Assembly: GCF_027923905.1 (NCBI RefSeq)
Contig: NZ_AP026966.1
Coordinates: 3,969,001-4,033,000, forward strand
Length of the DNA stretch: 64,000 nucleotides
Reading direction: 5' to 3'
From: Massilia varians
Lineage (GTDB): Bacteria > Pseudomonadota > Gammaproteobacteria > Burkholderiales > Burkholderiaceae_D
A program made the position numbers and the translations under genes. Within the stretch, counting starts at the first letter, position 1; every line of letters begins with the position of its first letter. This document shows, in pieces, positions 16,063-30,057 of the stretch. Below the pieces are notes generated by a model that saw only the letters and a program-made list of their open reading frames with translations, did no database searches and had not been told where the DNA came from.

Positions 16063-17982
16063 ATGCTTTCGTCATCCGTCTTCGAGTCAGCGTTTAACAG
16101 TTCGCCGATCGGCAAGTACCTCCTGTCCCCGACGCCGGAGGCCGTGATCCTTGCCGTGAACGATGCCTTCCTGAAGGCGTCGTCGCGCCGGCGCGAGGAG
16201 CTGGTGGGCACCAGCCTGTTCGTGGCCTTCCCTTCCAATCCGGACGACCCCGGCAGCAGCACCAACGAGGCCGAGCTGCGCACCTCGTTCGCCAAGGTGC
16301 TGGCGACCGGCGAGCCGGATATGCTTCCGGTACAGCGCTACCCGATCCCGGTGCAGACCCCCGACGGTACGATCGGCTTCGAAGAACGGTTCTGGAACGC
16401 CTACAGCGCCCCGGTGTTCGGCGAGAACGGCGCCATCGCATGCATCTCGCATACGACCAAGGACGTCACCGAGCAGATCCATTCCGAGCGGGCGCTGCGC
16501 GAGAGCGAGAACCGGTTCCGGGCGCTGACCACTGCCGGCCAGGTGGTGTACCGGATGAATGCCGACTGGACCGAATTGCGCGAACTCGACGGGCGCGGCT
16601 TTCTGAAGGACACCGAGCGGCCGCGCTCGTTCTGGCTGGAGGATTACATTCCGGACGACGAACAGGAACGGGTGCACGCCGCCGTGCTCGAAGCGATCCG
16701 GACCGGCTCCGTGTATGAGCTCGAACACCGGGTGCGCCGCGTCGACGGCAGCGACGGCTGGGCATTGTCGCGCGCCGTGCCGATCCTCGATGCGAAGGGG
16801 CAGGTGGTCGAATGGATCGGCGCCGCCAGCGACATCACCGAGCGCAAGACGGCCGAGGAAAGGCTGCGCGAGTCGGATCGCCGCAAGGACGAGTTCCTGG
16901 CCATGCTGGCGCACGAACTGCGCAATCCGATCGCGCCGATCAGCGCCGCGGCCGCCCTTCTGCAACGCATGAAGCCGGACGAGGCGCTGGTGCGGCGAAC
17001 CAGCGAGATCATCGCGCGCCAGGTCGGCCACATGACCGGGCTGATCGACGACCTGCTCGACGTCTCGCGCGTCACCCGTGGTCTGGTGGAGCTGGAACGC
17101 GTACCAGTCGACCTGCGCACCGTGCTGCAGGACGCGGTGGAACAGGTCATGCCGCAGATCGAGGCGCGCCGCCACGCGCTGGCGCTGGCCCCGCCATCCG
17201 GGCCGGTTGTGGTCATGGGCGACAAGAAGCGGCTGGTGCAGGTGGTGGCCAACCTGCTCAACAACGCCGCCAAATACACCCCGGAAGGCGGACATCTGGC
17301 CCTGCACGCCCATGCCGCAAACGCGCAAGCCTGCATCGAGGTCAGCGACAACGGCATCGGCATGGCGCCCGAATTGACCGGGAGGGTGTTCGAACTGTTC
17401 GCGCAGGCCGAGCGCAGCGTCGACCGCTCGCTGGGCGGACTCGGCCTGGGGCTGGCGCTGGTCAAGAGCCTGGTCGAGCTGCACGGCGGCTCGGTCGCCT
17501 GCGCCAGCCCGGGGCTGGGGCTGGGCAGCAGCTTCTCGGTGTGCCTGCCCTGCCTGCCCGCGCAGATGGCGCCGTGCGGCGACACCTGCGCGGCCGCCAC
17601 GGCCGCCAGTGCCGGCACCGCCTCCTCGCTGCGGGTCCTGGTCGTGGACGACAACGTCGACGCGGCCGTGACCCTGTCCATGGTGCTGGAAGCGGCCGGC
17701 CACCAGACCCTGGTGGAACACGGCGCGCTGGCCGCCCTCGAACGCGCACGGGCAAGCGCGCCGCAGGTCTGCCTGCTCGACATCGGACTGCCGGAGATGG
17801 ACGGCAAGGAGCTCGCGCGCCGCCTGCGCGCCGACCCGGTCACGACGGATGCCCTGCTGGTCGCCGTCACCGGGTATGGCCAGGACAGCGACCGCCGCCA
17901 GATCATGGCCGCCGGTTTCGACCACCACCTGGTCAAGCCGGTGGACATGGAGCGGCTCGCGGCGATCCTGGCCACGGCCTGA
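16063..17982 (+). CDS. Hybrid sensor histidine kinase/receiver protein
   Basis: 639-residue soluble-looking kinase. It has two PAS domains (about 8-140 and 146-262, the second with a PAC segment ending DITERKTAEE). A HisKA domain follows with phospho-acceptor His284 in MLAHELRNPI, then a HATPase domain with NLLNNAAKYT, SDNGIGM and GGLGLGLALVK, and a C-terminal receiver domain with Asp573 in LLDIGLPEMDG and Lys in HHLVKPVD. No membrane segment is visible, so it probably senses a cytoplasmic cue. No output regulator is adjacent. It is convergent with the HAF-repeat gene (11 bases between stops). The ATG at 16063 lacks a strong ribosome site. Confidence 0.92.
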   Translation: MLSSSVFESAFNSSPIGKYLLSPTPEAVILAVNDAFLKASSRRREELVGTSLFVAFPSNPDDPGSSTNEAELRTSFAKVLATGEPDMLPVQRYPIPVQTPDGTIGFEERFWNAYSAPVFGENGAIACISHTTKDVTEQIHSERALRESENRFRALTTAGQVVYRMNADWTELRELDGRGFLKDTERPRSFWLEDYIPDDEQERVHAAVLEAIRTGSVYELEHRVRRVDGSDGWALSRAVPILDAKGQVVEWIGAASDITERKTAEERLRESDRRKDEFLAMLAHELRNPIAPISAAAALLQRMKPDEALVRRTSEIIARQVGHMTGLIDDLLDVSRVTRGLVELERVPVDLRTVLQDAVEQVMPQIEARRHALALAPPSGPVVVMGDKKRLVQVVANLLNNAAKYTPEGGHLALHAHAANAQACIEVSDNGIGMAPELTGRVFELFAQAERSVDRSLGGLGLGLALVKSLVELHGGSVACASPGLGLGSSFSVCLPCLPAQMAPCGDTCAAATAASAGTASSLRVLVVDDNVDAAVTLSMVLEAAGHQTLVEHGALAALERARASAPQVCLLDIGLPEMDGKELARRLRADPVTTDALLVAVTGYGQDSDRRQIMAAGFDHHLVKPVDMERLAAILATA

Positions 17983-19733: not shown

Positions 19734-20159
19734 TCAGCCCGACAGCCGGGCCAGGGTGGCATCGTCCGGCTCGCCATCGAAGTACCTGTCGATGCAGGCC
19801 TGGAACACCGCCTCGTCCGGCGCGACGTCGGCGAACAGGGTCATCGACGAGCGGAACTTGAGGTCGTCGGGGTGGCCGAACAGCGCTTCGGCGGACAGGT
19901 CGTCACGGGCGGCCACGATGCCCGCGCACTCGCGCAGGCGTGCGCCCAGCACCGGATGGGCCAGGTAGGCAGCCGCTTCATCGCTGGAGGCGATCGCGTA
20001 GCTCTGCGCCATCTCGCTGCGGCCGAGCCCGGCAAGCTGGGGGAAGATGAACCACATCCAGTGGCTGTGCTTGTGGCCGGTGCGCAGTTCGGCGAGCACC
20101 GTGGCGTACACCGGGTCCTGGGCCTGGACGAAGCGTTCCAGGTCGAATTCATTGTTCAT
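19734..20159 (-). CDS. DUF1810 family protein
   Basis: 141-residue cytoplasmic protein of the DUF1810 (calpastatin-named) family. Diagnostic segments are FDLERFVQAQDPVY, SHWMWFIFPQLAGLG and YAIASSDEAAAYLAHPVLGARLREC. GGAGGTGAG precedes the ATG at 20159, which decides the start, although the frame is open much further upstream. The molecular function of the family is not established. It is transcribed divergently from the DUF3820 gene 74 bases away. Confidence 0.88.
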   Translation of the reverse strand: MNNEFDLERFVQAQDPVYATVLAELRTGHKHSHWMWFIFPQLAGLGRSEMAQSYAIASSDEAAAYLAHPVLGARLRECAGIVAARDDLSAEALFGHPDDLKFRSSMTLFADVAPDEAVFQACIDRYFDGEPDDATLARLSG

Positions 20160-20233
20160 CGTACTCACCTCCGACGCCGACCATGCTATGACTTTGAGAT
20201 TGTTTGCTAAAGTGCGTTCCCTAGGACGCGCCA

Positions 20234-20446
20234 ATGGACACCCATCATCTCTCTCTACTGCTCGTGCGTGACATGCCGTACGGGAAATATAAAGGCAGCA
20301 AGATTGCCGACTTGCCGGGCCACTACCTGGGCTGGTTCGCGCGCGAAGGCTTTCCGCGTGGCGAACTGGGCCAGTTGCTGGCCCTGATGTACGAGCTCGA
20401 CCATAATAATCTGCGCAGCCTGCTCGACCCGCTTCGTAGCCGCTAA
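20234..20446 (+). CDS. DUF3820 family small protein
   Basis: 70-residue protein with the family pattern MPYGKYKGSKIADLPGHYLGWF, FPRGELGQLLALMYEL and a C-terminal LLDPL. These small conserved proteins are sometimes annotated as putative quorum-sensing-regulated factors; the function is unproven. It has normal length and no signal peptide. Its 3' end is followed after 43 bases by a large inverted repeat. Confidence 0.85.
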   Translation: MDTHHLSLLLVRDMPYGKYKGSKIADLPGHYLGWFAREGFPRGELGQLLALMYELDHNNLRSLLDPLRSR

Positions 20447-20489
20447 GCAACATCGAATGGCACCTCTCCAGTGCTTGTCAGCTATACTT

Positions 20490-20650
20490 AGAACCTATCC
20501 CAGCAGGGAATGAGTCGTTGCTGGCGCGCCTGACAAGCGGGTGCTGCGTTGCTCGTCGTTGCATGGCCAGAGCCATGCGGCCTCCTCGCGCCTTGCCCGC
20601 GCTTGCCATGCATCGCCAGCAACTTCCTCCTCCCTACTGGGATAGGTTCT
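20490..20650. repeat. 161-bp MITE-like inverted repeat
   Basis: The left arm AGAACCTATCCCAGCAGGGA continues to GTTGCTGGCG, and the right arm inverted reads AGAACCTATCCCAGTAGGGA continuing to GTTGCTGGCG. About 37 bases per arm match with few mismatches, around a centre of some 85 bases. TTA occurs on both outer edges (20488-20490 and 20650-20652) if the element is taken as GAACC...GGTTC, which could be a target duplication. It has no coding capacity. It may be a non-autonomous transposon or a structured RNA-forming repeat. It ends 29 bases before the receiver gene start. Confidence 0.75.
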
Positions 20651-20679: not shown

Positions 20680-21078
20680 ATGGAAAACGAACAAGCTTCC
20701 CCTCCCCTCGTGCTGGTCGTCGAGGACGACGAGCACATCGCCCAGGTCCTGCGCTTCATGCTCGAGCGCCAGGCTTACCGCGTCGTCCACCTGGCCGACG
20801 GCCGCGCGGCGAGCGAACATATCCGCAACGCGCCAGAGCAGCCCGACCTGGTGCTGCTCGACGTCATGCTGCCCTACGTCGACGGCTTCGAGCTGGTGCG
20901 GCTGGCGCGCGAACGCAGCGACTGGGCCGGCGTGCCGATCCTGATGCTTACCGCCAAGAATACCGAACGCGACACCGTGCGCGCGCTCGACGCCGGCGCC
21001 AACGATTTCGTCATCAAGCCCTTCCAGCCGAACGAACTGCTGGCACGGGTCCGGCGTTTCCTGAAGACGGGGCCATGA
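20680..21078 (+). CDS. Single-domain response regulator
   Basis: 132 residues, only a receiver domain. It has the acidic pair in LVVEDDEH, phospho-acceptor Asp61 in LLDVMLPYVDG, Thr91 in LMLTAKN and Lys113 in VIKPFQP. There is no DNA-binding or enzymatic output domain. The ATG at 20680 is chosen because upstream codons fall inside the MITE-like repeat and lack receiver similarity. Its stop overlaps the next gene start (ATGA), so it is coupled to the HEAT-repeat protein. Phosphorylation may control the following membrane glycosyltransferase by protein contact. No kinase is adjacent. Confidence 0.92.
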   Translation: MENEQASPPLVLVVEDDEHIAQVLRFMLERQAYRVVHLADGRAASEHIRNAPEQPDLVLLDVMLPYVDGFELVRLARERSDWAGVPILMLTAKNTERDTVRALDAGANDFVIKPFQPNELLARVRRFLKTGP

Positions 21079-22130
21079 CGCCGAGCGCCCTGCCCGCAGG
21101 CACCGGCAGTTTCGTCACCGTCGCGGTCTGGACCGGGACGGTCGCTCTCATCCTGACCCTGCTGCTGGCCCTGCAGATCGTGCTGCTGCGCATGAACCTG
21201 CGGCGGCGCGAGCGCCGCGCGGCCCGCGCCGTGGCGCGCTGGCGTCCGCTGCTGAACCAGGCCATCGTGGGCGAGGAACCGGCGCTGCCGTCCTTGCGTC
21301 CGAGCGAACGCCTGCCCTTCCTGCACCTGTGGGCGCACCTGCAGGGTTCGCTGCGCGGCGAAGCCAACGAAGCGCTCAACGGCGTGGCGCGCCGGCTCGG
21401 CGTGGACGCGCTGGCGCGCGACATGCTGGCGCGCGGCGCGCGCGACGAACGCCTGCTGGCCACCCTGGTGCTGGGCCACCTGCGCGACCGCGCCGCCTGG
21501 CCCCAGCTGCTGCCGCTGGCCAGCGCCGCCGACAGCGTACTGTCGCTGAGCGCGCTGTGGGCGCTGGTGCGGGTCGATCCGGACGCCGCGGCCGAGTACC
21601 TGACGCCGCTGTTCATCGAGCGCGAGGACTGGGCGCTGTCGCACGTGGCCGGCATCCTGCAGCAGGCCAGCGGCCCGGTGGCACAAGTGCTGGCGCGCAT
21701 CCTGCCAGGCTTGCCCGAAGAGCGGCTGCCGCGCGCCTTGCGGATCGCCGAATCCCTGCGGGTCATGCTGCCGGCCGGGGTGCTGGCCGGCGCCCTGCAC
21801 AGCCCATCCAGTGCGGTGGTGATCGCCGCGCTGCGCGGGGTGCGTGAGCCCGCCGCCCTGAACGAGGTGCGCACGCTGCTCGGCCACGAAGACTGGCAGG
21901 TGCGGGTGCAGGCCGCGCGGGCCCTGGGCCGGGTCGGCGACCGCGGCGACGCCGCCCGCCTGACCAGCCTGCTGGGCGACCCGCAATGGTGGGTGCGCTA
22001 CCGCGCGGCCCAGGCGCTGCGCGAACTGCCGCGGCTGGCGCAGGCCGATCTGGAGGCGGTCCGCGCCTCGCTCACCGACCGCTTCGCGCTCGACATGCTG
22101 GACCAGGTGCTGGCCGAGGAGCAGGCATGA
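21075..22130 (+). CDS. Membrane-anchored HEAT-repeat protein
   Basis: 351 residues. An N-terminal membrane helix (about 13-38, VAVWTGTVALILTLLLALQ) is followed by a basic stretch and a cytoplasmic alpha-solenoid. HEAT-like repeats are clear in the C-terminal third: VVIAALRGVREPAALNEVRTLLGHEDWQVRVQAARALGRVGD and WWVRYRAAQALREL in pattern. It overlaps its neighbours by four bases on both sides, between a receiver protein and a glycosyltransferase, so it likely acts as a scaffold joining them at the membrane. No enzymatic motif is visible. Confidence 0.85.
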   Translation: MTPSALPAGTGSFVTVAVWTGTVALILTLLLALQIVLLRMNLRRRERRAARAVARWRPLLNQAIVGEEPALPSLRPSERLPFLHLWAHLQGSLRGEANEALNGVARRLGVDALARDMLARGARDERLLATLVLGHLRDRAAWPQLLPLASAADSVLSLSALWALVRVDPDAAAEYLTPLFIEREDWALSHVAGILQQASGPVAQVLARILPGLPEERLPRALRIAESLRVMLPAGVLAGALHSPSSAVVIAALRGVREPAALNEVRTLLGHEDWQVRVQAARALGRVGDRGDAARLTSLLGDPQWWVRYRAAQALRELPRLAQADLEAVRASLTDRFALDMLDQVLAEEQA

Positions 22131-23539
22131 CCGATTTCATTACCTGGTTCGTGTTCTGCTATTTCATCGCGCTCAACGGCGGCTACCTGCTGCTCAACGC
22201 GATCGCGCTGCGCGCCCTGCGCGTCAAGGGCCAGGAACTGTTCATCGCCGACCTGCCACGCGCCTATTCGGGCCTGGAGCCGCCGGTGAGCATCCTGGTG
22301 CCGGCGTATAACGAGGAAGCCACCATCGCCGCCTCGGTACGCTCGATGCTGCAGCTGAGTTACGCGGAATTCGAGATCATCATCGTCAACAACGGCTCCA
22401 AGGACGGCACGCTGGACGTGCTGGAGCGCGAGTTCGCCCTGCTGCCCTTCCCCGAGGCCTACCGCCGCCAGATCCCGACCGCCGAGGTGCGCGGCATCTA
22501 CCGCTCGACGCGCTACCCGAACGTGCGCGTGATCGACAAGCTCAACGGCGGCAAGGCGGATTCCCTGAATGCCGCGATCAACGTCTCGCGCTATCCGCTG
22601 GTGTGCGGGGTCGACGCCGATTCGATCCTGCAGCGCGACAGCCTGGCCAAGGTCACCGAGCCCTTCCTGCGCGACCCGACCGTGGTGGCGGCCGGCGGCA
22701 CGGTGCGGGTGGCCAACGGCTGCACGGTCAGCGGGGGCTTCCTCACCAGCGTCGGGCTGCCGAAAAACATCTGGGCCCTGTTCCAGGTGGTGGAATACCT
22801 GCGCGCCTTCCTCTTCGGGCGGCTGGGCTGGTCGTCGATGAACGGCATGCTGATCATCTCCGGCGCCTTCGGCGTGTTCCGCAAGGACGCCGTGGTGCTG
22901 GCCGGCGGCTACCGCCGCGATACTATCGGCGAGGACATGGAACTGGTGGTGCGCATGCACCGCCTGCTGCGCGAGCAGCGCCAGCCCTACCGCATCGAAT
23001 TCGTGCCCGACCCGGTGTGCTGGACCGAGGCGCCCGAGGACTACCGCACCCTGAAGAACCAGCGCATCCGCTGGCAGCGCGGGCTGGCCGAAAGCCTGAA
23101 CGCCAACTGGGGCCTGCCGTTCTCGCGCAACGGCGGCGCGCCGGGCTGGGTGGCCTTCCCGTTCATGGTGCTGTTCGAGTGGCTGGGGCCGCTGGTGGAG
23201 ATCGGCGGCTATGTATTCATGATCTGGGCCTACTTCAGCGGCATGATTTCCTGGGAAGCCTTCGGCGCCTTCCTGTTCGTCGCCATCGGCCTGGGCATCC
23301 TGCTGTCGGCCTCCGGCCTGCTGCTGGAAGAGATGTCCTTCCACATCTACCCGCGCGGCAGGCAGCTCCTGATGCTGGGACTGGTGGTGATCCTGGAGAA
23401 CTTCGGCTACCGCCAGCTCAATTCCCTCTGGCGCCTGACCGGCCTGTGGCGCTGGGCGATGCAGAAGGAGTCGACCTGGGGAACGATGAAACGCAAAGGG
23501 TCTTGGCAACAAGACGGCCAGACCCCGGCCGGCAAATGA
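22127..23539 (+). CDS. Processive family 2 glycosyltransferase (polysaccharide synthase-like)
   Basis: 470 residues from the ATG at 22127 (ATGA overlap with the HEAT gene). A membrane helix (about 6-28) precedes a GT-A domain: VSILVPAYNEEATI, VNNGSKDGT, then DAD (163-165), GED (268-270) and QRIRW (312-316). That is the D,D,D,QxxRW set of processive beta-glycosyltransferases such as cellulose, PNAG and hyaluronan synthases. Three to four C-terminal helices (about 345-430) should form the export channel. The polymer cannot be told from sequence. It is the probable core of the operon's exopolysaccharide function. Confidence 0.9.
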   Translation: MTDFITWFVFCYFIALNGGYLLLNAIALRALRVKGQELFIADLPRAYSGLEPPVSILVPAYNEEATIAASVRSMLQLSYAEFEIIIVNNGSKDGTLDVLEREFALLPFPEAYRRQIPTAEVRGIYRSTRYPNVRVIDKLNGGKADSLNAAINVSRYPLVCGVDADSILQRDSLAKVTEPFLRDPTVVAAGGTVRVANGCTVSGGFLTSVGLPKNIWALFQVVEYLRAFLFGRLGWSSMNGMLIISGAFGVFRKDAVVLAGGYRRDTIGEDMELVVRMHRLLREQRQPYRIEFVPDPVCWTEAPEDYRTLKNQRIRWQRGLAESLNANWGLPFSRNGGAPGWVAFPFMVLFEWLGPLVEIGGYVFMIWAYFSGMISWEAFGAFLFVAIGLGILLSASGLLLEEMSFHIYPRGRQLLMLGLVVILENFGYRQLNSLWRLTGLWRWAMQKESTWGTMKRKGSWQQDGQTPAGK

Positions 23540-23576
23540 GCGCGGCAAGCCGGCCGTCCTCGCTACACTGAACGCC

Positions 23577-25250
23577 ATGTCACGGCTTGCCTTCATTTTT
23601 CTCTTGTCGATGAGCGCTCCCGCCCACGCCGCTTTCCTGCACCTGTGCCCCGGTGGGGCGGCGCCTGGCGGCAGCCCTTCCGCCAAGGCCCTCGGGCCGG
23701 ACGGCAGGGAGCTGCGCTTCGTCGTCACCGGCGCGGCGGCGCTGCCCGGCTGCCGCTCGCTCGAACTCGGCGCGGCCAGCGTGGAAGCCCTGCACGTCCT
23801 GGGCACGGACAGCACGCCGACCGCCACCATCCTGCTGCAGGGCCAGGCCAGGGACGGCGGCTTCGCCGTCAGTGAACAGACCCTGGTGCCGGACGGCGCC
23901 GGCCGGCAGCCGGCAAAGCCCGCACCGATGCCGCTGCGGACCAACCTGCTGGCCGCGATGCAGGTGCGCAGCTACGGCGTCGAGGAACGGGTGCGGGCGC
24001 GCCTCGACGGGGGCCGCCTGCGTGTCGACTGCCGCGCCGGCACGCGCCCGGCCGGCGTCCTGCTCACGGGGCCGTGGTTCCTCCCGCGCCTGCGCGGGCA
24101 GCTGGTGGCCAGGCATTCCGGCAAGGGACAATTCGCCTGGCAGGCCGCGGACGCGGCCGGCGCGGCGCGCGAGTCGGCCCTCGACATGGGCCAGCTCCCC
24201 GCACGCGGCGCAGCCGGCGACACCCGGCTGGGCCTGCCCGCCGCCCTCGACCGGGCCGGCTGGCGCCACTTCGTGCTGGCCTGCCCGGCCGGCGGCGGCG
24301 AGCTGCTGCTCGATGCGCTCACGCTGGAGCCGGAAGCCGCCGGCGCGGCGCCGCGCTCGACCTGGATCTGGGACCGCGGCGCCTGGCTCGAACGCGGCGA
24401 CGCGCTGCTCGACTGGGCCGCGCGCGAACGCATGGGCGAGCTGTTCGTGGTGGTGCCGCTGGAAGAAGGCCGCGTCCGCGACCCGGACGCGCTGGCCGCC
24501 TTCGTGCGCCGCGCCGGACAACGCGGCATCGGCATCAGCGCGGTGGAGGGCGACCCGCACATGGTGCTACCGGGCGAGCGCGCCGCCACCGCCGCACGCG
24601 CCCGCGCCTACGCCGCCTACAACGCCGCGGCCGAACCGGTGGCGCGTTTGAAGGGCATCCAGTTCGACATCGAACCCTATCTGCTGCCCGAGCACGTGCT
24701 GCCGGCCGCGCGCCTCGATGCCGAGTACGTGGCCACCCTGGCGGCGCTGCGCGAAGCGGCGGGCGCCATGCCGCTCGAATTCGTCGTGCCCTTCTGGTGG
24801 GGCGAGCGCCAGGCGGTGCTGGACGGCCTGGCGCGCCATGCCGACGCGGTCTCGGTGATGGACTACCGCACCGATCCCGACCAGATCCTCGGCTTCGCCA
24901 TCCCCTTCCTGGACTGGGGCGCGGCCACCGGCAAGCGCGTGCGCATCGCGCTGGAAGCGGGCCCGCTGCCGCTCGAGACCCAGCGCCGCTACCGCCGCGC
25001 GCAGATGGGCGCCGCGGGCGACATGCTGCTGTTCACGCTCGATGGCCAGCAGGTAGCGGTGCTGCTGCGCCAGCCGCTCGCGCATCCGAACGCCCTGTCC
25101 TACAAGCTGGTGGACAGCCGCCCGATCGACGGTTCGGCCACCAGCTTCCACCAGAACAAGGACGCGCTGCGCGCCCTGCTGCCCCGCCTGGAAGCCGATT
25201 TCGGCGCCTGGCCGGGCTTTGCCGGGATCGCGCTGCACGAATGGCGATGA
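23577..25250 (+). CDS. Secreted protein with TIM-barrel, glycoside-hydrolase-like domain
   Basis: 557 residues with a signal peptide (MSRLAFIFLLSMSAPAHA, cleavage after about 18). The N-terminal half (about 20-260) is beta-rich and undefined. The C-terminal half looks like a (beta/alpha)8 barrel with GELFVVVPLEEG, GIGISAVEGDPHMV, KGIQFDIEPYLLP (Asp364/Glu366, the position of an acid/base pair in GH18-like barrels), LEFVVPFWWGERQ, ADAVSVMDYRTDPDQ and VRIALEAG. It lies 37 bases after the glycosyltransferase, so it may trim or release the polymer. It overlaps the sirtuin gene by four bases. The hydrolase call is inferred from fold-like spacing, not from a named family match. Confidence 0.7.
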   Translation: MSRLAFIFLLSMSAPAHAAFLHLCPGGAAPGGSPSAKALGPDGRELRFVVTGAAALPGCRSLELGAASVEALHVLGTDSTPTATILLQGQARDGGFAVSEQTLVPDGAGRQPAKPAPMPLRTNLLAAMQVRSYGVEERVRARLDGGRLRVDCRAGTRPAGVLLTGPWFLPRLRGQLVARHSGKGQFAWQAADAAGAARESALDMGQLPARGAAGDTRLGLPAALDRAGWRHFVLACPAGGGELLLDALTLEPEAAGAAPRSTWIWDRGAWLERGDALLDWAARERMGELFVVVPLEEGRVRDPDALAAFVRRAGQRGIGISAVEGDPHMVLPGERAATAARARAYAAYNAAAEPVARLKGIQFDIEPYLLPEHVLPAARLDAEYVATLAALREAAGAMPLEFVVPFWWGERQAVLDGLARHADAVSVMDYRTDPDQILGFAIPFLDWGAATGKRVRIALEAGPLPLETQRRYRRAQMGAAGDMLLFTLDGQQVAVLLRQPLAHPNALSYKLVDSRPIDGSATSFHQNKDALRALLPRLEADFGAWPGFAGIALHEWR

Positions 25251-26020
25251 GCGCGACCGATGTCGATCCCGGCCTGGTCGCCGCGCTGCACGGCGCGCAA
25301 CACGTCATGGTGCTGACGGGCGCCGGGGTGTCCGCGGAAAGCGGCATTCCCACCTTCCGCGACGCCTTGACCGGTCTGTGGCAGCATTTCGACGCGGCCT
25401 CGCTTGCCACGCTCGATGCCTTCCGGCGCGATCCCGCCTTGGTCTGGGGCTGGTACGAATGGCGGCGCATGAAGGCGCTGTCGGCCCAGCCGAACGCGGG
25501 GCACGTCGCGATCGCGCAGCTCGCCGGCCGCGTCGAACGCCTGTCCCTGTTCACGCAGAACGTCGACGACCTGCACGAGCGTGCCGGCAGCCATGAAGTG
25601 CAGCACCTGCACGGCAGCCTCCATCATCCGCGCTGTGCCGACTGTAGCCACCCGTTTGTCTTGCCGGCGGCCGCGCCCGTGGAGCCGGAAGGCGGCCGGC
25701 GCCTGGCGCCGCCACGCTGCCCGGCCTGCGGCGGCCCGGTCAGGCCCGGCGTGGTGTGGTTCAACGAAGCGCTTCCCGAGGCCGTCCTCGCGCGCGCATT
25801 CGACGCATGCGGCAGCTGCGATCTCCTGATCGTCGTCGGCACCTCGGGCACGATCTATCCGGTGGCCCAGCTTCCCGAGGTGGCGCGCCGGGCCGGCAGC
25901 CAGGTCGTCCAGGTCAACCCGGCCGCCAGCGGGCTGGATCGCGTGTGCACCTGGAACCTGCGGGGGAGCGCCGCCCAGGTGTTGCCGGCCCTGATCAGCC
26001 ATGCCTGGCGGCCGGCGTGA
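25247..26020 (+). CDS. Sir2-family NAD-dependent deacylase (CobB-like)
   Basis: 257 residues. It contains the NAD-binding GAGVSAESGIPTFR, TQNVD, the catalytic His in HLHGSLHHPRC, a zinc ribbon (CADC and CPAC), and GTSGTIYPVAQLP. The pattern PALVWGWYEWRR holds the Tyr-x-x-Arg pair found in class III sirtuins such as CobB and SIRT5, which points to activity on succinyl or malonyl lysine as well as acetyl lysine. An alternative ATG six bases upstream (25241) is in frame. The four-base overlap with the preceding gene suggests co-translation with the polysaccharide cluster. Confidence 0.92.
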   Translation: MSATDVDPGLVAALHGAQHVMVLTGAGVSAESGIPTFRDALTGLWQHFDAASLATLDAFRRDPALVWGWYEWRRMKALSAQPNAGHVAIAQLAGRVERLSLFTQNVDDLHERAGSHEVQHLHGSLHHPRCADCSHPFVLPAAAPVEPEGGRRLAPPRCPACGGPVRPGVVWFNEALPEAVLARAFDACGSCDLLIVVGTSGTIYPVAQLPEVARRAGSQVVQVNPAASGLDRVCTWNLRGSAAQVLPALISHAWRPA

Positions 26021-26854: not shown

Positions 26855-27607
26855 TTGCGTACCCCGCCGATCCATCCCCGCGTGGCCACCCGCGCCACGG
26901 CGGTGCAGCTCATGCGCGCCCGCCTGCTGCGCGAGGGCTTTCCGCGGGTCCAGATGTTCATCCTGGTGTCGCTCACCGGGCTGGCCGGTTTCGGCGCCTC
27001 GGTGGCGATGCTCGCCGCCGGGGTCGACACCATGGCGCTGCGCTACGCGCTGGCGATGGGCGTGGCCTACCTCGCCTTCCTGCTGCTCCTGTGGCTGTGG
27101 CTGCGTACGAGTGCGGCGGACTACCTCGACTTCCTGCCCTCTGATGGGCCGGGCGGCCAGGCGAGTGCGAACGATGCTGCGGCCGGCTTCAGCGGTGGCG
27201 GCGGCAGCTTCGACGGCGGCGGCGCCAGCGGCAACGTCGACTTCGGCACCCAGGACAGCGTCAGCGACGCCATCGCCGACGCGCCGCTCGATGTCGGGGC
27301 CGAGGCCGACGAAACCGTGATGCCCCTGGTCGTGATCCTGCTCGCCGTGGGCATCGCGCTGTCTTCCCTGTTCGTGATCTGGTCGGCGCCGATCCTGTTC
27401 GCCGAGATCCTGGTCGATGCCTTGCTGGCCGCGGGCCTGTACCGGCGCCTGCGGGTGCTGGAGCCGCAGCACTGGATGCTGGCGGCCTTGAAACGCACCA
27501 TCCTCCCCTTCGTGCTGACCACCCTGACGGTGGTCGCCGCGGGATGGGGCATGCAGGCCTATGCGCCCGAGGCGCGCTCGCTGGGCGAGGTCCTGGCCAG
27601 CCGCTAG
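26855..27607 (+). CDS. Membrane protein with Gly/Ser-rich loop
   Basis: 250 residues with about four membrane segments (roughly 35-55, 60-83, 155-178 and 215-236). Between the second and third is a low-complexity loop (about 110-128, FSGGGGSFDGGGASG). The start is taken as TTG at 26855, preceded by GCGAGGCAAGC; GTG at 26882 is an alternative. No family is recognised. The gene follows the putative lipoprotein closely and its stop overlaps the convergent kinase stop in the sequence CTAG. Confidence 0.65.
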   Translation: MRTPPIHPRVATRATAVQLMRARLLREGFPRVQMFILVSLTGLAGFGASVAMLAAGVDTMALRYALAMGVAYLAFLLLLWLWLRTSAADYLDFLPSDGPGGQASANDAAAGFSGGGGSFDGGGASGNVDFGTQDSVSDAIADAPLDVGAEADETVMPLVVILLAVGIALSSLFVIWSAPILFAEILVDALLAAGLYRRLRVLEPQHWMLAALKRTILPFVLTTLTVVAAGWGMQAYAPEARSLGEVLASR

Positions 27608-29895
27608 GCGGGCGCTGCCGGCAGTTCCACCACGAAGCGCGTGCCGCGTCCGGGCGCCGTGGTGAAGCCGATGGTGCCGCCGTGCTCCTCGATGATCGCC
27701 TTGCTGATCGCCAGTCCCAGGCCGGTGCCGCCGCGGGTGCGCGAGTCGGCGCCGTCGGCCTGGGCGAAGCGCTGGAACACGCGCTGCTGGAATTCCGGCG
27801 CGATGCCGGGGCCTTCATCCAGCACCAGCAGGCGGACCTTGCCGGGCGTGCGGGCCAGGCCCAGCGTGACGGTCTTGCCCGCCGGCGTGAACTTGATGGC
27901 GTTCGACAGCAGATTGGTCAGCACCTGCTCCATGCGGTCCGCGTCGATGCTGGCCGCGATCCGGGCCGCGCCCGCATCCCAGTCGCCCAGCAGGCGCACC
28001 CCCGCCTTGCGGGCATGCCCCTCCATGGCCGCCAGCGCGCGCTCGGCCACCGGCAGCAGCGGCTGCGCCAGCGTCTCGAAATGCATCTGGCCGGCCTCGA
28101 TCTTCTGGATGTCGAGCAGGTCGTTCACCATGCGCACCAGGCGCTCGCTGCTCTGGCTGGCGATGGTGATCAGGCGCAGGGCGTCCGGCGGCAGTTCGCC
28201 CGCCATGCCGTCGGCCAGCATCGCCAGCGAAGCCTGGATCGAGGTCAGCGGCGTGCGCAGCTCATGCGAGACGGTCGAGATGAACTCGTTCTTCATCTGC
28301 TCGACCCGCTTGCGCTCCGAGATATCGTGCAGGAACACGCTGAAGAAGGCGTCCTCGCCCTGGCCGGCCAGGGCCGCCGTCATCTCGATCGGGAATTCAC
28401 GGCCGTGGCGGTCGATCACCTTGCGCTCCAGGCGCTGGTCGAGCATGGCCAGGTGGCCGGTCTGGCGGAAGGCATGCAAGGCCTGGCCCAGGCTGGCGCG
28501 GTAGCGCTCCGGCAGCACCAGCTCGGCCAGCGGCCAGCCGACGGCCTCGTTGCGGCGCCAGCCGAACATGCGCTCGGCCGCGCCGTTCCAGTCGAGGATG
28601 ATACCGCGGCGGTCGACCGCGATGTAGGCATCCTGCGCCGCTTCCACGATCGCATTGATGCGCTGCTCGTTGGCCTGCACCGAGGCCAGCGCCCGCTCCA
28701 GTTCGCCGGTGCGTTCCTCGACCCGCTGCTCGAGCGTGGCGTTCAGGTCGCGCAGTTCGGCCTGCTTGCGCACCAGGTCGTCCACCAGCCCGTTCAGGGT
28801 GGTCGACAGCGCCTGCACCTCGAAATAGTCGTTCGCGTTCGGCGGCAGCCGGACCGCTTCGCCGCGTCCCAGGCGTTCGGCCGACTCGGCCAGCGCCCCG
28901 AGGGGACGGGTGATGCGGCGCGCCACCAGCAGGCCGGCCACGGAAAACAGCACCGCCAGCGCCGCGCCGCTCCACAGCGCCTGCTCGCGCAGGCGGCGCA
29001 CCGGCGCATAGGCATCCTCCACGTCCTGGCGCACTAGCACGGTCCAGCCCAGGCCCGGGTACAGGTCGCGGCCGACGGTGGCGCCGTAGCCGACCAGGTA
29101 GGACAGGCCGTCCGGCCACTCTTCGACCAGATAACCGGCGCGCTTCTGCTGCGCCAGGCGCAGGCTCCGGGTAGCGATCTTCTTGCCCTGCAGGCCGGGC
29201 GGGCCGAACAGGACCTCGCCCTGCCGGCTGACGATCAGGGCCTGGACCCGGCCGCGCGCCTGGACCGAGGCGACGATCGAGCGCTCGACGTCGCGCGCCC
29301 ATTGCCAGGACAGGTGCACGCCCAGCACGCCGGCGGTCTTGCCGGACAGGTCGGTGTAGGGGAAGGCCACGTCGACAAAGCGGCGCGGCTCGCCGTTCTC
29401 GCCCGGCAGCAGCTTGGCGAGCTTGACCGCCTCGTGCACGTCGCCCACGTTGACGCCTGCGAGGGCGTTGCGGAACCAGGGGCGCTGCGACACGTCGACA
29501 CCCTCGAGCAGGCCGCGCGCCTCGACGATCACCCGGCCGTCCAAGCCGGTCAGGCCGATCCAGTCGTAGTAGCCGTAGGTCTCGCGCATGTCTGACAGCA
29601 CCTGGCGCCGCTCGGCCGGCGCGATGCCGGCATCGCGCAGCGCGCGGCGCCGCGTCATCAGGCTGACCTCGCGGTAGCGCTCGGCCATGCCACGGTCGAG
29701 CTTGTCCGCGGTCTGGCGCGCCATCTCGCCCAGGTTGTTGCCGATGCTGTCCTTGACCTGTTCGGTCGACGAGCGCTCGATGACCCCGACCAGCAACAGG
29801 GTCAGGATCACCGTCAGCAGCGAAAACGCCAGCGCCAGCCAGGCGCCAAGGCCGCGCCTGCGGCGCCGTGTGGGGGGAGTTGCGGGTGTGTCCAT
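27604..29895 (-). CDS. Transmembrane sensor histidine kinase (Cache-HAMP-PAS-HisKA-HATPase)
   Basis: 763 residues. Membrane helices at about 17-39 and 308-325 enclose a periplasmic double-Cache-like sensor (YYDWIGLTGLDGRVI, QRPWFRNALAG, FVDVAFPYTD, LGVHLSWQWA). A HAMP domain (about 322-375), a coiled coil (375-410) and a PAS domain (410-530, ending DISERKRVE) follow. Then come HisKA with His544 in STVSHELRTPL and a HATPase with NLLSNAIKFTP, DEGPGIAP and GGTGLGLAISK. No response regulator lies next to it. The start at 29895 (ATG) is favoured over TTG at 29916; neither has a strong ribosome site. The signal is probably a small extracellular ligand. Confidence 0.92.
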   Translation of the reverse strand: MDTPATPPTRRRRRGLGAWLALAFSLLTVILTLLLVGVIERSSTEQVKDSIGNNLGEMARQTADKLDRGMAERYREVSLMTRRRALRDAGIAPAERRQVLSDMRETYGYYDWIGLTGLDGRVIVEARGLLEGVDVSQRPWFRNALAGVNVGDVHEAVKLAKLLPGENGEPRRFVDVAFPYTDLSGKTAGVLGVHLSWQWARDVERSIVASVQARGRVQALIVSRQGEVLFGPPGLQGKKIATRSLRLAQQKRAGYLVEEWPDGLSYLVGYGATVGRDLYPGLGWTVLVRQDVEDAYAPVRRLREQALWSGAALAVLFSVAGLLVARRITRPLGALAESAERLGRGEAVRLPPNANDYFEVQALSTTLNGLVDDLVRKQAELRDLNATLEQRVEERTGELERALASVQANEQRINAIVEAAQDAYIAVDRRGIILDWNGAAERMFGWRRNEAVGWPLAELVLPERYRASLGQALHAFRQTGHLAMLDQRLERKVIDRHGREFPIEMTAALAGQGEDAFFSVFLHDISERKRVEQMKNEFISTVSHELRTPLTSIQASLAMLADGMAGELPPDALRLITIASQSSERLVRMVNDLLDIQKIEAGQMHFETLAQPLLPVAERALAAMEGHARKAGVRLLGDWDAGAARIAASIDADRMEQVLTNLLSNAIKFTPAGKTVTLGLARTPGKVRLLVLDEGPGIAPEFQQRVFQRFAQADGADSRTRGGTGLGLAISKAIIEEHGGTIGFTTAPGRGTRFVVELPAAPA

Positions 29896-30057
29896 GCTGG
29901 GCTGGGCTCGAAACAATTGCGCCAGCGTAACACACGTCAGCCCGACATACTATGGGCGAGACCGTGGGCGTCGCACGGGAGAAACGGATTTCCTGTAAAC
30001 TAGACGGCTAGTGATTTGCACGATGTTGCAACGACAAGAAACACCACGAGAACGCCC

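Follow-up and report, generated by a model that had tools for sequence, protein, structure and literature searches.

A conserved receiver, HEAT-repeat and glycosyltransferase gene unit in Massilia varians and distant bacteria, with a suggested role in polysaccharide synthesis

The synthesis of the well-studied synthase-dependent polysaccharides cellulose, alginate, Pel and poly-N-acetylglucosamine (PNAG) depends on the binding of cyclic di-GMP (c-di-GMP), as excerpts of PMC8461298 state. The described systems closest to the locus examined here are the PgaABCD/IcaA machinery, the NfrBA-YbcH system of Escherichia coli and the NELoc-2 locus of Clostridium perfringens. For the last, the gene listing excerpted from PMC2879425 gives a 377-amino acid HEAT protein (CP4_0467) directly before a 466-amino acid family 2 glycosyltransferase (GT2; CP4_0468) called a chitin synthase, and excerpts of a later study place HEAT, glycosyltransferase (GT) and polysaccharide deacetylase genes together (PMC11677781). 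Our subject is an operon within a 64,000-nucleotide stretch of the Massilia varians genome (contig NZ_AP026966.1, positions 3,969,001 to 4,033,000, hereafter the window), in which genes for a stand-alone receiver (REC), a HEAT protein and a GT2 synthase follow one another. We show that REC, HEAT and GT2 stay together as one unit far beyond Massilia. The module is a genuine and widely conserved regulatory variant of the synthase-dependent route to polysaccharides, and one that is apparently undescribed.

Conservation of the receiver, HEAT and glycosyltransferase genes

A first reading made without database searches (the sequence-only reading) had placed five open reading frames (ORFs) in the operon, for REC, HEAT, GT2, a barrel protein and a SIR2 protein, and all five were confirmed at its positions. 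The features of the locus are as follows.

20680..21078, + strand: REC, a stand-alone receiver of 132 amino acids (PF00072, 1.6e-29) with no output domain
21075..22130, + strand: HEAT solenoid, predicted to be membrane-anchored (PF13646, 9e-16; PF02985; AlphaFold2 model)
22127..23539, + strand: GT2 synthase of processive type, PgaC/IcaA-like but of a separate subfamily (PF13641, 1.4e-24; PF13632, 1.5e-16)
23577..25250, + strand: two-domain TIM-barrel protein, probably secreted (structure model; without Pfam match)
25247..26020, + strand: sirtuin, a SIR2 family deacylase (PF02146, 1.4e-49)
27604..29916, - strand: Cache-HAMP-PAS-HisKA-HATPase histidine kinase (Pfam)
20490..20650, no strand: palindromic repeat element of about 160 bases, ending 29 bases 5' of the REC start

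Four-base ATGA overlaps link REC to HEAT, HEAT to GT and the barrel gene to the sirtuin gene, and the barrel gene begins after a gap of 37 bases behind GT.

Genome contigs were scanned with the window GT alone, which yielded 80 named loci, or 81 with the window included. The 80 comprise 21 Massilia/Telluria loci, 19 Nitrospira-like loci, other Proteobacteria, Bacillota (Alkalibacterium, Streptohalobacillus, Acetoanaerobium and metagenome-assembled genomes, MAGs) and further MAG loci titled Acidobacteria, Calditrichaeota, Elusimicrobia, Neomarinimicrobiota, Nitrospinota, actinobacterium and Cyanobacteria; several of these phylum labels are MAG titles, and because many near relatives are among the 80, the locus counts are not independent. 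HEAT was found at 75 of the 81 GT loci, and the other six (L061, L063, L072, L075, L105 and L110) reach contig ends. At 59 of these 75 loci HEAT precedes GT by no more than 300 bases, L115 has a wider gap of 544 bases, and in 15 Nitrospira loci deacetylase, TPR-YaiO and barrel genes on the opposite strand separate the two. A REC gene precedes HEAT at 70 of the 75: in 55 loci it is no more than 300 bases away, in 14 a YaiO gene separates the two, and in L098 the distance is 1.55 kb. Among the five HEAT loci at which REC was not found, four have at most 2.2 kb of upstream sequence.

To define the boundary of this association we used a control of 61 further loci lying outside the profiles, which may share species with the named loci. 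The GT profile split them into 41 members (E <1e-91) and 20 other GT2 (E >1e-56), and 39 of the 41 subfamily GTs had HEAT no further than about 1.5 kb away, against none of the 20 others; the two members lacking it were L165 and, at the edge of its contig, L018. Across 145 family genomes GT occurred in 17 and HEAT in 16 of those 17, with HEAT alone in none, and the 17th GT genome carries a diverged HEAT that was detected by profile (L131, 6e-19). Distance matrices for 66 loci (L114, L098, L115 and L051 left out) gave r=0.975 for GT-HEAT, 0.955 for GT-REC and 0.966 for HEAT-REC, uncorrected for shared descent. The recurring gene order and the sharp boundary control rule out a chance neighbourhood. 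The triplet for which the sequence-only reading proposed a neighbourhood search is conserved, and loss of the gene order among relatives, which would have spoken against that reading, was not what we found.

The encoded proteins and their neighbours

The window REC carries the phospho-acceptor D61 together with T91 and K113, and has the hallmarks of a single-domain response regulator: a receiver whose phospho-site is intact and to which no output domain is attached. In the alignment of 70 loci the D61 column holds D in 69 and E in 1, the K113 column K in 69 with a gap in 1, and the T91 column T in 47 and S in 22. REC forms the protein C-terminus (tail of at most 14 amino acids) in 69 of the 70, L098 being the exception with 33, as would be expected if REC signals by contact. 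The REC ORF is 205 amino acids or shorter in 51 of the 70 loci; 18 of the 19 longer ones end in REC, and 13 of these 19 bear a second REC or a GGDEF domain, while the remaining six may be over-long start choices, gene calling being rough. Among the long ORFs the Pfam scan was made of L096 alone, and the REC match in L114 is partial.

The HEAT protein has a single hydrophobic stretch (residues 20-38) within the long first helix (residues 11-64) of an AlphaFold2 model of mean pLDDT 95.7, in which HEAT repeats follow this helix. It is therefore predicted to be a membrane-anchored solenoid, and since positive residues come after the hydrophobic stretch its repeats would face the cytoplasm. Attempts to identify it by fold failed, as the 50 matches listed by Foldseek and VIA were generic HEAT/ARM solenoids, among them designed alphaRep and armadillo proteins, importins, PP2A and CAND1. 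A search of 72,556 plasmid records for the HEAT gene returned one weak partial match only.

In the GT the motifs D163/D165, E269-D270 and Q312xxRW316 are each at least 95% conserved across the 81 loci. PgaC/IcaA was the top NCBIfam match for all four GT members scanned, at 129 bits (2.2e-37) for the window protein and 138-146 bits for three distant members, below the cut-off of 422.3. No NCBIfam match to PgaD was found in the HEAT or barrel proteins that flank GT, the rest of the genome being unsearched for PgaD. In these respects the sequence-only reading described the operon well: it had called a receiver without an output domain, a membrane-anchored solenoid (here again as a prediction) and a synthase of the D,D,D,QxxRW type, and had proposed polymer synthesis, with which the export and processing genes near the loci agree.

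A YaiO-type barrel lies within -9/+6 kb at 39 of the 81 loci and a polysaccharide deacetylase at 19, the deacetylase match (PF01522) scoring 22.7 bits, slightly below the cut-off of 23.1, and Pfam confirms YaiO in Gallionella (L069) and Nitrospira (L059). No YaiO gene was found in the whole window. However, at a second locus of the M. varians genome (L173:8446-12950, at about 4.39 Mb) a TPR-YaiO gene is accompanied by genes for an LtaS/OpgB-like sulfatase-superfamily protein and a 310-amino acid barrel paralogue, followed by a penicillin-binding protein gene. The YaiO-type barrels at 39 of 81 loci and at this second locus may be counterparts of the TPR outer-membrane exporter of PNAG synthesis, the search having covered the YaiO type. 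In Gallionella L069 a homologue of the L173 sulfatase (34% identity) and a YaiO barrel stand beside the REC-HEAT-GT operon, and in Massilia G307 a sulfatase and a small barrel adjoin the operon behind the kinase. The L173-type sulfatase occurs in only 2 of the 145 family genomes, both of them GT-positive. The YaiO, deacetylase, GH-like and sulfatase neighbours suggest a synthase-dependent exported polymer; polymer synthesis by the module is strongly suggested by this gene content, and the exported polymer is probably one of amino sugar.

The barrel protein is modelled as a CBM29-like beta-sandwich joined to a glycoside hydrolase (GH)-type TIM barrel. As in the GH18/GH153 fold of the PgaB C-terminal domain, a (beta/alpha)8 barrel carries an acidic DxE pair, D364 and E366, which the model supports and which is invariant in 37 of 37 chosen sequences (28 window and database proteins picked from 339 database hits, plus 9 from Nitrospira). 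No Pfam GH family matched any of these 37 at E<=0.01, and attempts to name the protein through PDB sequences or Pfam found nothing. Its description as secreted comes from its first 20 residues, read by eye as a signal peptide, and a 19-residue hydropathy scan flagged nothing at the N-terminus. The proposal of a secreted DxE barrel that processes the polymer thus stands for the barrel and its DxE pair and is weaker for secretion; such a GH18/PgaB-like barrel could process the polymer. The gene is present at 39 of the 81 loci, every one of them Massilia/Telluria or Nitrospira-like.

The sirtuin, which had been suspected of being a possible passenger, is on the evidence of gene neighbourhoods just that. 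Among the 80 named loci it is adjacent in L036 only and lies 3 kb past the barrel gene in L053, with no match elsewhere at E<=1e-20, and 16 of the 81 loci have less than 3 kb past GT and are uninformative. Adjacency solely in the window and L036 rules the sirtuin out as a member of the system.

At 20 of the 21 named Massilia/Telluria loci (L036-L054 and L056) an orthologue of the histidine kinase is convergent to the operon, at a distance of 0.15-7.8 kb from the end of GT; none was found in L087, where 14 kb were covered; the kinase is also beside the operon in G307. By Pfam the window kinase has no receiver domain of its own, and in L092 and L101 a kinase gene is directly upstream of REC, while L096 encodes a hybrid kinase plus a Hpt-REC-GGDEF-REC protein. 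The kinase is the probable partner of REC in Massilia.

Upstream of REC, the repeat element at 20490-20650 is near-palindromic, with perfect terminal inverted repeats of 14 bases and a fold z-score of -6.0. Since the genome, with the present copy counted, has four long versions of it (157-176 bases aligned at 88-100% identity) as well as fragments, it resembles a small non-autonomous mobile or REP-like element, and it is outside the conserved module. Promoter and terminator scans gave no signal exceeding shuffles. Beyond the element a DUF1810 gene (19734-20453) diverges from the operon and is nearby in 20 of 22 Massilia/Telluria loci, the window counted. In eight loci a small ORF of 70-81 amino acids, uncalled in the window, lies between this gene and REC. 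Past the DUF1810 gene a PAS hybrid histidine kinase with a receiver is encoded at 16063-17982, and close relatives of it are similarly placed in L036, L040 and L056. In Alkalibacterium, Streptohalobacillus, Acetoanaerobium and a Clostridiaceae MAG the gene row is headed by a protein of 1,070-1,094 amino acids (cluster c27), without a Pfam match in L096 (145-3375) and represented in L092 by two adjacent ORFs.

Proposed control of the synthase and alternative explanations

That the locus encodes a synthase-dependent exopolysaccharide module, its GT2 controlled by a two-component system without DNA-binding output, is a proposition we hold to be evenly balanced, and control of GT2 by phosphorylated REC through HEAT, which we consider the likeliest mechanism, we judge to be about equally poised between right and wrong. 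In Massilia the Cache kinase (27604-29916) would phosphorylate REC at D61, and phosphorylated REC may then dock onto the cytoplasmic HEAT solenoid, which would itself be bound to GT2. By analogy with the action of PgaD on PgaC, this contact would open or stabilise the synthase. The polymer would leave through the TPR-YaiO outer-membrane barrel that M. varians encodes at L173, and the secreted GH18/PgaB-like barrel would trim or edit it. More tentatively, and with somewhat less than an even chance, REC-HEAT-GT2 may make up a widespread class of processive polysaccharide synthase of its own, gated by direct contact with a terminal phosphorylated REC through the membrane-anchored HEAT solenoid, an arrangement that would replace c-di-GMP and partners of the PgaD/BcsB type.

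Several observations weigh against phospho-REC control of this kind. HEAT and GT are found without REC in L089, despite more than 4 kb of upstream sequence, and in the excerpts of the NELoc-2 reports (PMC2879425, PMC11677781), which give the pair no function; in L165 the 1.5 kb around a subfamily GT contain no HEAT. Fusions of REC to HEAT, which would have argued for contact, or of HEAT to GT were found neither in the 75 loci nor in the best 120 of 711 HEAT relatives, and the distance correlations carry no correction for shared descent. A GGDEF domain lies within -9/+6 kb at 19 of the 81 loci. The association is also not exclusive in Massilia, where 62 genomes include 33 with GT, 41 with the barrel (31 with both, 10 with barrel but no GT, 2 with GT but no barrel) and 55 with the kinase or a paralogue. 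A kinase-like protein is present in all 33 GT-positive genomes, yet also, partly as paralogues, in 22 of the 29 GT-negative ones, which weakens the kinase as an exclusive marker of the system. In the three barrel-positive, GT-negative genomes inspected out of ten (L177-L179), the barrel gene and a convergent kinase come straight after REC, with HEAT and GT both absent; their joint absence supports the view of HEAT and GT as one unit. REC dN/dS there is 0.055 for the close pair L177-L179 and 0.18 and 0.20 for pairs with L178, while six pairs that have the full unit give values from 0 to 0.13; given this purifying selection REC has some use without HEAT-GT, and one or more further roles belong to REC or the kinase.

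The same observations nourish an account in which REC neighbours HEAT-GT through shared export or expression only, REC being a phosphate sink or serving another target while HEAT-GT is constitutive: REC, barrel and kinase persist without HEAT-GT in all three inspected genomes with REC under purifying selection, and HEAT-GT occurs without REC in L089 and in the published NELoc-2 excerpts. Yet REC precedes HEAT in 70 of 75 loci across several phylum titles, retains its phospho-site and has no output domain following it, and shared expression alone leaves the recurrent terminal REC unexplained, so that we rate this account as quite improbable. A stronger competitor, although still an unlikely one, makes HEAT a PgaD-like structural partner and c-di-GMP the switch of the synthase, with the REC relay steering a diguanylate cyclase, fused or unfused. 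Nine REC-terminal proteins contain GGDEF (eight Alkalibacterium/Streptohalobacillus records and one Clostridiaceae MAG), with the motif present, in one of them as GADEF, and a tenth, L114, lacks the motif; L096 is an example of the fused kind. GGDEF is also found downstream in eight Massilia/Telluria loci, and in L127-L130, four loci of one genus, a GGDEF ORF is convergent behind GT. Pfam at E<=0.01 detected no recognised c-di-GMP-binding domain (PilZ, MshEN) in either of the HEAT and GT proteins, but since excerpts of PMC8461298 report that PgaC/PgaD bind c-di-GMP without a recognised motif, binding at an interface could still occur. Set against this competitor are the short REC ORFs, the lack of GGDEF near 62 of the 81 loci and, by GGDEF profile, in the whole window, and the fact that GGDEF-fused proteins still keep a second, terminal REC beside HEAT. 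Of the earlier suggestion of protein contact rather than c-di-GMP, the contact is strengthened by the terminal REC, and c-di-GMP may nonetheless take part, given the GGDEF domains fused in nine loci and near 19 of the 81.

It is also conceivable, if very unlikely, that GT2 makes a membrane or cell-wall glycan, such as a lipid-linked sugar or wall polymer, and not a released exopolysaccharide. Gram-positive members have no outer membrane, and the LtaS/OpgB-like sulfatase, which is linked to the operon in Gallionella and G307 and also encoded by M. varians, could serve to decorate a polymer of the envelope; on the other side, the four members scanned match PgaC/IcaA best among NCBIfam models, and YaiO at 39 of 81 loci, the deacetylase and the GH18/PgaB-like proteins fit an exported amino-sugar polymer. 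The unit is carried by Massilia, Nitrospira and Gallionella, by Bacillota that are halophilic or alkaliphilic, and by MAGs with the labels of other phyla. Should phospho-REC control of GT2 through HEAT prove true, it would show that phosphorelays can directly govern a synthase of this type, and annotators would gain a recognisable polysaccharide system from parts now named ‘HEAT repeat protein’ or ‘hypothetical protein’.

Comparison with known systems

Among the matches listed from open-licence PMC full text, preprints not covered, we found no description of the REC-HEAT-GT2 triplet. The words HEAT, YaiO, response regulator and receiver are all absent from the main text of an operon survey (PMC7112194), and in the excerpts of PMC3826837, considered as a possible description, the corresponding terms refer to unrelated genes. 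Homology to a described exopolysaccharide locus, the other outcome that would have told against the sequence-only reading, is partial only, comprising the PgaC-like synthase and the HEAT and GT pair in the excerpted NELoc-2 locus. NELoc-2 is like the module in its HEAT-then-GT2 order, a likeness drawn from the published listing and not from sequence (PMC2879425, excerpted), but differs in adjoining CotH, VTC and FtsZ-like genes and sigma and anti-sigma factors (PMC2879425, PMC11677781, both excerpted). The N4 glycan receptor system NfrBA-YbcH of E. coli resembles the module in pairing a GT with an outer-membrane partner, a secreted polysaccharide and local signal control; in contrast, NfrB has its own MshEN c-di-GMP domain, served by DgcJ, and the abstract names no REC or HEAT (PMC8669469).

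The EpsW-type response regulator (NCBIfam NF041866) is likewise a stand-alone receiver in an exopolysaccharide context, the window REC scoring 79.8 bits against it, below the cut-off of 200. The YaiO/yaiP region of E. coli shares the YaiO barrel (PF19413), and E. coli was the sole control genome with a match in the search with this family. The GT2 YaiP is presumably encoded near YaiO there, and we know of no HEAT or REC partner for this region.

PgaABCD/IcaA likewise has a PgaC-like GT2, and the synthase of the module has a membrane partner encoded alongside; the neighbourhoods of relatives hold a TPR outer-membrane barrel, a deacetylase and a GH-type barrel with the PgaB C-terminal fold. Unlike in PgaABCD, the GT of the module reaches 129 of 422 bits, the exporter is of YaiO type, deacetylase, barrel and exporter are separate genes, and REC and HEAT occupy the place of PgaD.

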